From positions 1,302,001-1,366,000 of the forward strand of contig BIMP01000001.1 of assembly GCA_007996965.1 (NCBI GenBank): a stretch of 64,000 bases of DNA, given 5' to 3'. This document shows positions 4,548-22,518 of the stretch, piece by piece. Origin of the DNA: a cyanobiont of Ornithocercus magnificus. GTDB taxonomy: Bacteria > Cyanobacteriota > Cyanobacteriia > PCC-6307 > Cyanobiaceae. Position 1 is the stretch's first letter. Each line of letters starts with the position of its first letter. Position numbers and translations under genes: made by a program. Below the pieces are notes generated by a model, which saw only the letters and a program-made list of their open reading frames with translations, had not been told where the DNA came from and did not search any database.

Positions 4548-6158
4548 TCAGCCTCGCCCCATACCCCGTGCGATGCCGCGGCCGATCAGTCCGATTGCAC
4601 GCCCAATAACCTCAGTAAGCACTATTGCAAGCAAATTACCTATCTGGCGCACAAGAGACTGGAATTGTGGAGCTAGGGCATCACGTGCCTCCAGAAGTAG
4701 AGCCACCTGACTAGGCCACCAATCAAGCTTTTGCAGCTCTTCATCACGGGGCTCAGTTATGGATAAAGTCTCAATTCGGCCATCCCGCAGCCAATAGACC
4801 AGCCGGCGGCTTTCATAGAGCCGAATTGGCCGCTCGACTAGAGACTGCCAACGCTGTTGATTGTTGAGCCGGTTGCGCAGCCGTTCAAGCGAACGTGTAG
4901 AAATCAAGCGCTGATTGAGTAAATAAGGTCTTAGTTCAGGCCAGGCACCACATTGACTGAGTATCTCAGCGCTGATTAGCTCGGCTGATCTTACTAACCA
5001 ATTGCTAACCAAGGTTTCAAGCTGCAGGAGTGCACGCGGGTCATCAACTGGCAGTAATTGGCCATCTACTAATACTGGTTGCCCTTGAAGTAGAGGAAAC
5101 AACATCCGTTGTGCATCTGGCAATTCTTCGTCAGAAGTACTCATATTGGTTGTGGCTACCAAGGAATCAACTACAGAGGTTAGTTTTCCGCTCCTCGGTA
5201 ATTTTACATAGCTGCCGGCCATAGTACACATTGCCTGTCGCCGTAGTTCTGGCTGTAGAGTTGCCCAGCTCTTAACTTTGAGGAGCTGTTCTTGTGGGTT
5301 ATCGTAGCTGCGTAGCTGCTGCATTACAGCGTTAAGCTGATATAACAATGCCAGTAATAAGTCACGCTGACGCTCAGGATTAAGGCCTTCAATAGCAAGT
5401 AGTCTTCCAGTCCCATTGCTGAGGCCATCAGAAACTAGCATATCTAGACGACGCTTGATAGCTTGCCATACGCCCTCAGCATTACGTGATTGCAGAGTGA
5501 TCTCTGGCAAGAGAAGCTCGTCTGCCGCAGGTTGTCGAATGAGCTTCTCTTGCCAGAGATCACTCTGCAACGGGCCCCAAAGCCAGAGCAGCAAGTTTCT
5601 AGAACTATGCAACTCTCGAAGACGACCCTCTAGCAATAAACGCGTCAGAGAATTACAAGAGGGTAAAGATAGAGAACTCTCAATTATTTGTGAGTCATGG
5701 TCAATTTGCTGTAGACCACTAAGTAAGAGCCACTGGCTAAGACCCTGAATGGGTGTACCGAGATTATGGGTACTAACTGACTGGTTTAAGCGGATTATGC
5801 GTCCGCCACCTTCCAAAGTCATAACAGCTTGTCGGAGCGTTTCTAGATCTGGGTTTTGTACTAGCCCAGCACAGTCTAAGGTAAAAAGCTGCTTCGCTGT
5901 CAGGTGAAGACGTCCCGGAAGCAATAAGAGAACAGGAGCAGTGATCCAACGCTCCTGTAGTAGTAAAAGCTCTTGTCGTAGGCTGGCTAGAGATTTAGTA
6001 CTATTAATAGACCAGATAACAACAGATGGAGAGCAGCAAGCATCATCAGGATCAAGCAGGACCTCAAACCTAGGATCAATTGAGGTAAGACGTAGGGCAA
6101 GAGATTCAGCAAGAAGCTTAGGAGCTAGCAGCAAAATCAGTAACGATTGTTGATTCAA
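4548..6158 (-). CDS. DUF3685 domain protein (Ycf55-like)
   Basis: Protein of 536 residues. The first 120 resemble a receiver-like alpha/beta domain (LLILLLAPKLLAESLALRL, VVIWSINSTKSLASLRQELL), and the remainder matches the cyanobacterial/plastid DUF3685 family related to Ycf55. It ends in a hydrophobic, possibly membrane-associated helix and a Gly/Arg tail (GRAIGLIGRGIARGMGRG). Function is unknown. The apparent start is TTG at 6158. A perfect 30-bp inverted repeat lies inside the gene (5490-5519 with 5541-5570), encoding LQSDLWQEKL and ELLLPEITLQ. Confidence 0.72.
   Translation of the reverse strand: MNQQSLLILLLAPKLLAESLALRLTSIDPRFEVLLDPDDACCSPSVVIWSINSTKSLASLRQELLLLQERWITAPVLLLLPGRLHLTAKQLFTLDCAGLVQNPDLETLRQAVMTLEGGGRIIRLNQSVSTHNLGTPIQGLSQWLLLSGLQQIDHDSQIIESSLSLPSCNSLTRLLLEGRLRELHSSRNLLLWLWGPLQSDLWQEKLIRQPAADELLLPEITLQSRNAEGVWQAIKRRLDMLVSDGLSNGTGRLLAIEGLNPERQRDLLLALLYQLNAVMQQLRSYDNPQEQLLKVKSWATLQPELRRQAMCTMAGSYVKLPRSGKLTSVVDSLVATTNMSTSDEELPDAQRMLFPLLQGQPVLVDGQLLPVDDPRALLQLETLVSNWLVRSAELISAEILSQCGAWPELRPYLLNQRLISTRSLERLRNRLNNQQRWQSLVERPIRLYESRRLVYWLRDGRIETLSITEPRDEELQKLDWWPSQVALLLEARDALAPQFQSLVRQIGNLLAIVLTEVIGRAIGLIGRGIARGMGRG
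5490..5570. repeat. Perfect 30-bp inverted repeat with 21-nt spacer inside a gene
   Basis: Bases 5490-5519 (beginning TTGCAGAGTGATCTCTGGCA) are the exact reverse complement of 5541-5570, with a 21-base spacer at 5520-5540. I checked all 30 pairs by hand; pairing stops at both ends (5489/5571 and 5520/5540). It lies wholly within the DUF3685 coding sequence, where both arms are translated in frame. In RNA or single-stranded DNA it would form a very stable hairpin. Confidence 0.95.
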
Positions 6159-18425: not shown

Positions 18426-19658
18426 ATGGATCATGCTTCTGTGCCAGTACCGGAATGGTTAGTAAGGCGACTGCGCCAACAGGGTGCTGTATCTTTTAGA
18501 CGATACATGGACTGGGTGCTGAATGATCGTGAATATGGTGCTTATGGGACTGGTCGTCTGCGAGTTGGCCTCCATGGTGATTTTGTCACGTCATCCTCGC
18601 TAGGTTCCTCGTTTGCTTCTCTGCTTGCTCTCCAGATTCAACAATGGTTGCAGAGTCTTAGTACTAGAAGCAAAGTAGACCGCCTAAGTTTAATAGATGT
18701 TGGTCCTGGTGAAGGTGATCTAGCTGCAAACTTAGTATCAACGCTGCTTGACTATGATCCAGGCCTAGCTGAATACGTAGAACTAATCCTAGTTGAGCGC
18801 AATCCTGGAATGGTGTGTCGGCAACGGCAACGCCTTAAAGGTCTCATGGAAATTCTGCCTGTGCGTTGGAGCTCCTTAAAAAAGCTTGCTGGTTCAGCAA
18901 TAGAAGGAATCATAATTGCGCACGAGTTGATTGATGCACTTCCAGTAGAACGGTTAGTACTTAGGCAGGTGGGCAAACGACTGCATCGCCAGACTGTCAT
19001 GCTGTCAGATACCTCAAAACCTTTCCTGCGCTTTGGATCTTCGGCTTTGCCGAACACAATAGCCAGAGAGATTGCGTCAGCATGCCATCGCCTTGGGATC
19101 TGTTTACCACCTTCAGAAGCACCAGCAGGTTGGACAACTGAGTGGCCCGCTACTCAGGGAGATTGGCTTGCCGAAGCATCAGCAGTATTGCATCGGGGTA
19201 TTCTTCTTATAATCGACTATGCGCTAGAGGCCAAGCGATTTTTTCAAGTTCACCGTGCTGAAGGGACACTTGTGGGCTACCGCCGCCAGAGAATGGAGAC
19301 CTGCATTCTTGACTACCCAGGCGAGATGGATCTCACTGCACACCTCTGCTGCGAATTAGTGGTTGATCAGAGCCGGCAACAAGGATGGACTATGCTAGGG
19401 CAATGTCGTCAAGGTGAGGCGCTTCTCGCTCTCGGTTTAGCGCAGCGTCTGCATAAATTGCAAAGTCTGCCACCGTCACAGCTTGCTAAAGCTTTAGAAG
19501 AACGTGAGGCACTGCTGCGCCTAGTCGATCCCACAGCACTTGGTGACTTCCGCTGGTTTGCACTGCAGAAGCAACCAAGAGGAATAGCTCCAGACTCTCC
19601 TTTCCCCTGTTACTTCATGATGCAACCTTTCAGCGAAACGTCTGTAGGCAAGTCATGA
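18426..19658 (+). CDS. SAM-dependent methyltransferase of the DUF185/MidA (NDUFAF7) family
   Basis: Protein of 410 residues. The SAM-binding motif [16 protein letters not shown] lies near residue 87, the acidic loop LVERNPGM follows, and [16 protein letters not shown] is the family's conserved ELxDAxP-type motif. Eukaryotic members methylate a complex I subunit; the bacterial substrate is unknown. In this group a link to NDH-1 would be inference. The gene overlaps the convergent aroB by 29 bases at the 3' end. Start ATG at 18426. Confidence 0.87.
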
Positions 19659-20751
19659 TGTCTAGACAGCTGATATCTGATCGCATCTCTACGTGCCCGA
19701 TAGTTCGTGGAATGACAAATCTAACTATTCCATTATGTACCTTTTTGTCACTTTGAAGTGTGCTCAGAACAATCTCTGGGTCAAGGTTAGGCCAATCGGT
19801 CGGAAGTCCTGCTCGTTTGATCAAGAGCTTTTGCCGATCTGCATTTTCACGACTCCAGTAGCCGCGCTGGGCTGATAACTCTCCTATTGCCGCCATGCCA
19901 ATAGCTACAGCTTCTCCATGCAGCCAGTGGCCATAGCCACAGAGCATCTCAACTGCATGCCCAAATGTATGGCCGTAGTTAAGTATCGCTCGCAATCCCC
20001 TTTCACGCTCATCTGCCATTACGATGTGAGTCTTGGCCACTACAGAGCGAGCAAGAATATCATCAAGCAGCTGCATCGGTATAGCAACTAGCTTAGAGAG
20101 ATCATCTGCTTGCTCGAGCATCTTGAATAGATTGGGATCTCCAATCACACTATACTTGATTACTTCTGCCATCCCAGCACGGAACTCGCGGTCTGGCAAT
20201 GTGCTAAGTGTCTCCGGGTCAATTAGCACTAGTTGTGGTTGATGAAATGCCCCGATGAGGTTTTTGCCTCCAGGATGATTGACACCTGTTTTTCCACCGA
20301 CCGCAGCATCTACCATCGCTAGAAGCGTGGTTGGTACTTGTACAACAGCAATGCCTCGTAGCCAGCTTGATGCTGCGAATCCTGTTATGTCCCCGATCAC
20401 TCCACCACCGAGAGCTACCATCAGAGAGTTTCTTTCAAGTTTGGCACTCCAGGCTGCATCATGGATTTGTGACACAGTTGCTAGTGTCTTTTTATCTTCT
20501 CCAGCATCGATAACAAGCAACTTTGGCTCAAATCCTGACCTCCGCAAGCTAGCTAAGCAACAATCTGCATAAGCAGCAGCTACAGTAGGGTTGGTAACAA
20601 TCAGAGCACGACTACCGAGCAGGGGCCGTGCCGCCCTCAATTCTTCACCAAGGTACTCTAGGCCTCCACGACTAATCAGTACATCATAGGGGTTACACTC
20701 CAGAGCTACAGGGATACGGCATAGTGGATGCTCAAAGATCCTTTTCTTCAT
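19630..20751 (-). CDS. aroB: 3-dehydroquinate synthase
   Basis: Second enzyme of the shikimate pathway, turning DAHP into 3-dehydroquinate with NAD and a divalent metal. Length of 373 residues is normal. Motifs visible are the NAD-binding [21 protein letters not shown] (about 115-135), [20 protein letters not shown], and metal ligands in [17 protein letters not shown] and HGEAVAIGM. The last 29 bases overlap the convergent methyltransferase gene. Start ATG at 20751. Confidence 0.97.
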
Positions 20752-20861
20752 AAGATGCTCTGGTTGTTCCTGCTCATTTTGCCATGCTAAAATATACTAG
20801 TTGTGGTTTCCTAAAAGAGATTTTGCCTGTATGTTAGCCTAGAACTAAAGCTTAAATGATC

Positions 20862-21113
20862 CTATCTTGACCTTGTCACCAATTTCCGTGTTTGACCTAC
20901 GGCTCTACTGCTTGTGGTATCTTTGTAACTTTTCAGATAAGTCAGGCTTAGAAGATCAACGATATAGGACTGGGACAGCGAGTGTGTCGAGTGTGATTTA
21001 AGAACCAGGCCCTCACAAATGTTCTGCCATTGTCTTGTAGTTAGGCTAGAATCATGTAGGTGATTATACTTCAAATTTTGATCTACCATTATTGCATCAA
21101 TTATCTTTTGCAT
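20862..21113 (-). CDS. Doubtful 83-residue hypothetical protein
   Basis: Open frame of 83 codons with amphipathic helix-like sequence (LTTRQWQNICEGLVLKSHST, SYIVDLLSLTYLKSY) and a basic end. I do not recognise it. It lies alone next to the 46-bp palindrome, with no clear ribosome-binding site. It could be a genuine small protein or a chance frame in an AT-rich spacer. Confidence 0.3.
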   Translation of the reverse strand: MQKIIDAIMVDQNLKYNHLHDSSLTTRQWQNICEGLVLKSHSTHSLSQSYIVDLLSLTYLKSYKDTTSSRAVGQTRKLVTRSR

Positions 21114-21144
21114 ACTTTATGCTCAGACTAGACTAGTCGATAGC

Positions 21145-21190
21145 TGCAGATAGAACAGCTTTAGCCTAGGCTAAAGCTGTTCTATCTGCA
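21145..21190. repeat. Perfect 46-bp palindrome
   Basis: Left half begins TGCAGATAGAACAGCTTTAG at 21145; the right half is its exact reverse complement ending at 21190, with the centre at CCTAGG between 21167 and 21168. All 23 pairs were checked by hand, and symmetry breaks at 21144/21191. There is no T-run immediately after it on either strand, so it is not a standard intrinsic terminator, though it could fold as a hairpin or cruciform. Confidence 0.97.
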
Positions 21191-21309
21191 TAAGCATATT
21201 ATTAATCTGATACTTATATTGCCTTTGGCTATATTGTCACTTTCAAGGATAGAGCCTAGGCTATTTTGTAAACCAATTGTATCCTTGTCCTCTTCATACC
21301 TAGGCATAA

Positions 21310-22518
21310 GTGACCGAAGTAGATGGCAAGCTTCCGTCTAGAAATCTGGCTGAGCCGATGATAGGAGTCATCGGAGGTGGGCAATTAGCCCAAATGCTGA
21401 TAAACGCAGCACAAAGGCGTGGGATTCCTGTTGCTGTTCAGACAGGCTCGACGCAGGATCCTGCTGCTAGTGAGGCTGAACGGATCGTGATTGCTGATCC
21501 CAAAGATGCTTTAGCTACCCGCCACCTAATTTCAGACTGTGATGGTGTCACTTTTGAGAATGAATGGATTAATATTGATGCGCTTCTGCCACTTGAGCAC
21601 CAAGGATTTCGCTTCACACCCTCTCTTGGTGCTTTGTCTCGCTTGGTAGATAAGCGATCTCAGAGATGTCTTCTTAGTGAACTTAGTATTCCCTGTCCAG
21701 AATGGATTCCCCTTACAAAGATTTCAGCTGAATCGCCGTCTCTGCCTCCTAGTTGGAGGTTTCCTGTGGTGGCCAAGGCTTGTCGTGGAGGATATGATGG
21801 CAAGGGCACATACGTAGTGCATTCTACCAAAGATCTGTTCCACCTCATGGGCTTTGTGTGTGCTGATGAATGGATTCTTGAAACCTGGGTTCCTTTTGAG
21901 CAGGAGTTGGCGCTTGTAGCTAGCCGCGACTCTAGCTATTGTATTCGCTCGCTACCACTTTGCGAGACTTACCAAACCAAGCAAATCTGCGACTGGGTTT
22001 TAGCTCCCGCAGCTGTCAGTCAGAGTGTTCAGGCTTTTGCATATAACATTGCAGCATCTCTTCTGACACATCTAGACTATGTTGGTGTTTTAGCCTTGGA
22101 ATTTTTTTATGGTCCTGGTGGCCTTCAAGTGAATGAGATTGCGCCAAGAGTACATAATTCCGGGCACTTCTCGATCGAAGCCTGTAGTAGCAGCCAATTT
22201 GATCAACAGGTATGTATTACTGCTGGTCTCTCTGTGCCAGAACCAAAACTTTTAGTACCTGGGGCTGTTATGGTCAATTTGCTTGGGCTCAATCCTAAGA
22301 TATCTGGGTCACTTCAAGAACGTCTCCAACGAATACACCAAATTAAAGGTATTAATGTGCACTGGTATGGTAAGTCAGGTGAAACTGAAGGTCGTAAGCT
22401 TGGTCATGTTACAGCAATTTTAAATGAGTCAAGTACTCTCTCGCGACGAAGGCAAGCAATCCGCTTAAGGAACACAATTCGAGCTATCTGGCCTCTTCCA
22501 ACATGTACTAGCTCTTGA
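21310..22518 (+). CDS. purK: 5-(carboxyamino)imidazole ribonucleotide synthase
   Basis: ATP-grasp enzyme of purine synthesis making N5-CAIR from AIR, bicarbonate and ATP. Length 402 residues. The N-terminal GVIGGGQLAQMLINAAQRRG (about 18-37), VTFENEW, the ATP-grasp lysine region PVVAKACRGGYDGKGTYVV and VNEIAPRVHNSGHFSIEAC are all characteristic. Start is GTG at 21310; the ATG at 21358 sits right at MIGVIGGGQL and could be the true start, which would shorten it by 16 residues. Confidence 0.96.
   Translation: MTEVDGKLPSRNLAEPMIGVIGGGQLAQMLINAAQRRGIPVAVQTGSTQDPAASEAERIVIADPKDALATRHLISDCDGVTFENEWINIDALLPLEHQGFRFTPSLGALSRLVDKRSQRCLLSELSIPCPEWIPLTKISAESPSLPPSWRFPVVAKACRGGYDGKGTYVVHSTKDLFHLMGFVCADEWILETWVPFEQELALVASRDSSYCIRSLPLCETYQTKQICDWVLAPAAVSQSVQAFAYNIAASLLTHLDYVGVLALEFFYGPGGLQVNEIAPRVHNSGHFSIEACSSSQFDQQVCITAGLSVPEPKLLVPGAVMVNLLGLNPKISGSLQERLQRIHQIKGINVHWYGKSGETEGRKLGHVTAILNESSTLSRRRQAIRLRNTIRAIWPLPTCTSS

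Follow-up and report, generated by a model that had tools for sequence, protein, structure and literature searches.

We asked how a perfect 46-bp palindrome came to lie between the divergent aroB and purK genes of a cyanobacterial genome, and whether it acts there as a regulatory element. The locus was found in a 64-kb stretch of DNA that was analyzed as a whole (the window). Within the family to which Synechococcus and Prochlorococcus belong, the genome stands apart: among the genomes compared its genus has one species, and no PurK found is more than 62% identical to its own.

The aroB-purK palindrome and its setting

The palindrome (21145–21190) consists of a 23-bp left arm (21145–21167, + strand) followed, with a spacer of 0, by a right arm (21168–21190, − strand) that is its exact reverse complement. 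There are no mismatches and the center is CCTAGG, exactly as the earlier note had described. The next-longest spacerless palindrome anywhere in the 64-kb window has arms of only 8 bp, and the number with arms of at least 23 bp expected by chance from base composition is 9e-10 per 64 kb. The same note's judgment that such a palindrome is rare by chance is therefore borne out (~1e-9 expected per window), and the palindrome is non-random. Its statement that such sequences are usually unstable is overstated at 46 bp; palindrome instability concerns much longer palindromes. As a single strand the sequence folds into one hairpin, with z-scores of −7.5 for DNA and −5.1 for RNA.

The palindrome sits 120 bp from the start of purK, in a 558-bp spacer (20752–21309; 38% GC) between aroB (3-dehydroquinate synthase; 19630–20751, − strand; Pfam PF01761 and PF24621) and purK (N5-carboxyaminoimidazole ribonucleotide synthase; 21310–22518, + strand; Pfam ATP-grasp and PurK_C). 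Relatives keep the divergent order of the two genes but not the intervening sequence: in several of them a gene resembling an ABC sugar permease (~300 aa) lies between aroB and purK, and in others the gap is just about 100–370 bp. A search of this genome's spacer for a remnant of the permease gene recovered nothing recognizable, and the spacer as a decayed permease gene was rejected. A phage origin of the spacer was likewise rejected, as it had no match in phages.

Two local echoes of the palindrome reported by the earlier note are both real. The first is an imperfect copy, TTAGCCTAGAACTAAAGCT (20834–20852, + strand), whose similarity score was reached in 5 of 2000 dinucleotide shuffles and in 5 of 1500 random genomic stretches. 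The second is a further copy of AGCCTAGGCTA (21253–21263, + strand). The self-complementary core of the palindrome, AGCCTAGGCT (21163–21172), occurs in two copies 90 bp apart and nowhere else in 864 kb of the genome. The echo is thus local, and the small repeat family at which that note hinted does not extend genome-wide.

Long inverted repeats across the genome

We sampled 864–909 kb of the 1.88-Mb genome (about half) and applied one scoring rule to all genomes. The perfect repeats recovered have arm/spacer lengths of 35/0, 31/13, 30/7, 29/10, 28/4, 23/0 (the aroB-purK palindrome), 21/11, 20/2, 18/8, 18/5 and 17/2. They are mutually unrelated in sequence, with arms of up to 35 bp, and apart from short matches for one coding case no 14-mer of an arm recurs elsewhere in the 864-kb sample. 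As expected of a template-switch product, the aroB-purK palindrome is a perfect, closely spaced inverted repeat of unique sequence. A second member lies in the window at 5490–5570 (32-bp arms, one mismatch, 17-nt spacer), within a 536-aa open reading frame (4548–6158, − strand).

Inverted repeats scoring at least 18 numbered 11 in 909 kb here versus 4 in 1666 kb of relatives (p = 0.0045), and the five closest closed genomes contributed 1 such repeat in 800 kb. With the window excluded, perfect repeats with arms of at least 18 bp numbered 9 here versus 1 in the five closest closed genomes (p = 0.02); the p values for the excess are modest, treat repeats as independent and draw on small samples for any single relative.

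Three intergenic perfect hairpins in the sampled stretches (L045:3838–3897, L056:9685–9752 and L032:8110–8176) have terminator-like GC cores. Their arms of 28–30 bp (28/4, 29/10, 30/7) extend pairing far past a normal terminator stem. With such hairpins present in the genome, a single origin for every member of the class is not required.

Five perfect repeats fall in open reading frames, all in frame and without a stop, and each was aligned with about 19–24 family homologs. In four of the five (two in pyrF, one in argS and one in a gene that we take, from reading its sequence, to be LpxB-like, Pfam giving no match), one arm is closer to the family sequence; the other arm diverges from the family and equals the reverse complement of the better-kept arm, in register. 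Length and frame are intact in all four. The fifth repeat (L056), within a variable linker, is uninformative.

The two pyrF repeats span 70 bp (L032:15708–15777) and 36 bp (L032:16148–16183). The longer is centered on the conserved VIGRPIT motif of OMP decarboxylase, whose codons are here themselves palindromic. Its upstream arm, AVAAGASQLVIGRP, matches relatives, and its downstream arm reads SCEAPAAT versus, for example, KAEDPSAA among relatives. At the second pyrF repeat, WH replaces the RR of most relatives. Consensus residues are matched at 2 of 7 positions in the upstream (recipient) arm of the argS repeat and at 6 of 7 in the downstream (donor) arm; the corresponding counts for the LpxB-like gene are 2/7 in one arm versus 5/8 in the other. 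As read from these alignments, the inequality of the arms in the four repeats is the signature of template switching, which would convert a quasi-palindrome into a perfect palindrome.

When random overwriting of the same genes was simulated, 23–48% of trials introduced a stop and the damage was greater than that observed. The observed overwrites are thus milder than random (combined p about 2e-5), in part because the sites were already quasi-palindromic; the mildness is consistent with selection in living cells.

Origin of the palindrome

Taken together with its coding siblings, the aroB-purK palindrome probably arose by a template-switch mutation. During replication or repair, a nascent strand would fold back its 3' end at a self-complementary core as short as AGCCTAGGCT or shorter, copy its own arm and rejoin the template, leaving the other arm overwritten by an exact reverse complement. 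A core of this type is the likely seed of the fold-back, and the echo at 20834 is suggestive of a trace of the ancestral quasi-palindrome. The relatives available are too distant to reconstruct the ancestral spacer or to tell the donor arm from the recipient, and we infer the template-switch origin from the siblings. The palindrome itself presumably carries no selected function. The earlier note had offered several readings, among them an inverted duplication, which was right as a possibility; its list lacked both natural template-switch mutation and the genome-wide set of repeats.

A regulatory role, in which the palindrome would control the divergent aroB and purK genes as a cruciform or as the operator of a dimeric or tetrameric protein, is an unlikely alternative. 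The position between divergent genes and close to the purK start, the low GC content of the spacer, the nearby echoes of the core at 20834 and 21253, and a weak promoter-like match downstream of the palindrome (21207–21235) would all suit such an element, but promoter-like matches are no better than chance, and the spacer is unconserved although the divergence of the genes is conserved. The palindrome also occurs once in the genome, its 16-bp core having just two other genomic sites, each with 2 mismatches; it neither recurs upstream of other genes nor is conserved upstream of orthologs. Moreover, an operator would not need as many as 46 perfect base pairs, and similar palindromes of unrelated sequence occur within genes. 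With one copy, no regulon and an unconserved spacer, the protein-binding site proposed in the earlier note finds no support.

An artefact of assembly, amplification or library preparation, the consensus having taken up a fold-back chimera or the result of template switching in vitro, is less probable still. Nearly all of the repeats are perfect (17 of 19), with few decayed ones, which would suit an artefact. This scarcity of decay could also reflect recent origin, re-homogenization or rapid loss. The absence of a comparable excess from the contigs of relatives, which are mostly single-cell amplified genomes, speaks against an in-vitro effect. In addition, the palindrome lies within a contig spanning 1.58 Mb and has unrelated flanks on either side rather than marking a fold-back contig end, and the coding siblings keep frame within conserved genes, their changes falling mostly at tolerant positions. 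We therefore regard the artefact raised in the earlier note as unlikely.

A transcribed hairpin, either a terminator or an mRNA-stabilizing stem, is very improbable despite the stable predicted RNA fold and the terminator-like cores of other long hairpins in the genome. The palindrome lacks a T-run and hence is not a terminator; no terminator-like site was called there, it lies between divergent 5' ends, and an Rfam search gave only hairpin matches below the gathering threshold. The earlier note was correct that this is not an ordinary terminator.

A REP- or MITE-like mobile miniature repeat would fit a palindromic, intergenic sequence but can be set aside at the sensitivity used, because the palindrome is single-copy: with up to 3 mismatches allowed, its 23-bp arm does not recur in its own genome and its 34-bp center is absent from the 299 other genomes of the family that were compared, its exact 22-mer center is absent from both genome and viral contig collections, and the other palindromes of the genome are unrelated in sequence.

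The excess of long inverted repeats could have a cause in the complement of repair nucleases. In E. coli, template switching is held in check by exonucleases I and VII. Neither XseA (the ExoVII large subunit; TIGR00237) nor SbcD (TIGR00619) was found in this genome, the assembly of which is 95.6% complete, and xseA was also missing from the rRNA-operon neighborhood, its location in two relatives. XseA was found in 31 of 34 good-quality family genomes. SbcD went undetected in 12 of the 34, so its absence here is not specific. Loss of repair genes (xseA, sbcD) is suggestive as a cause of the repeat excess, and for xseA it is held at that level because another family genome without XseA (G017) shows no excess, with none of the long repeats in 340 kb. 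That the lineage is a natural template-switch mutator, in which nuclease loss lets long perfect repeats accumulate and rewrite blocks of ~6–11 residues in housekeeping proteins, is a speculative extension that we consider doubtful.

Significance and relation to known systems

In this context a single odd palindrome becomes legible as the trace of a mutational process. The pyrF, argS and LpxB-like palindromes show template switching at work in a wild bacterium, where it replaces whole stretches of residues in conserved proteins. Under simple substitution models such stretches would be mistaken for clustered or adaptive change. Should the rate truly be raised in this lineage, it would serve as a natural experiment on which nucleases hold fold-back replication in check.

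The mechanism, by which an imperfect inverted repeat is made perfect when one arm copies the other, is already known (PMC7202029; PMC8794818; PMC8604942); it is the length and frequency of the products that are unusual here. The E. coli thyA and lacZ QP reporters likewise convert an imperfect repeat to a perfect one by arm copying (PMC7202029; PMC6357072), but they record single mutations at short 18-bp repeats of a laboratory strain, whereas here arms of 17–35 bp recur throughout the genome of a wild bacterium. Template switching in yeast coding genes also substitutes neighboring amino acids through arm homogenization, affecting up to five neighboring residues in comparisons among strains (PMC8604942); the corresponding figure here is about 6–11 residues per overwritten arm, judged against distant homologs only. 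As in the origin of RNA hairpins by template switching, one event suffices for a perfect stem, but those stems are functional RNAs (PMC8794818) and the repeats described here give no indication of RNA function. In Nematomorpha mitochondria, too, protein-coding genes contain many perfect inverted repeats of great length, with conserved residues encoded by both arms (PMC6649704), whereas in this genome one of the two arms deviates from the family sequence. Finally, bacterial genomes show a general excess of palindromes in which the over-represented inverted repeats are mostly short (PMC4060949; PMC10434271); in this genome it is the long-arm tail that exceeds that of other family members.
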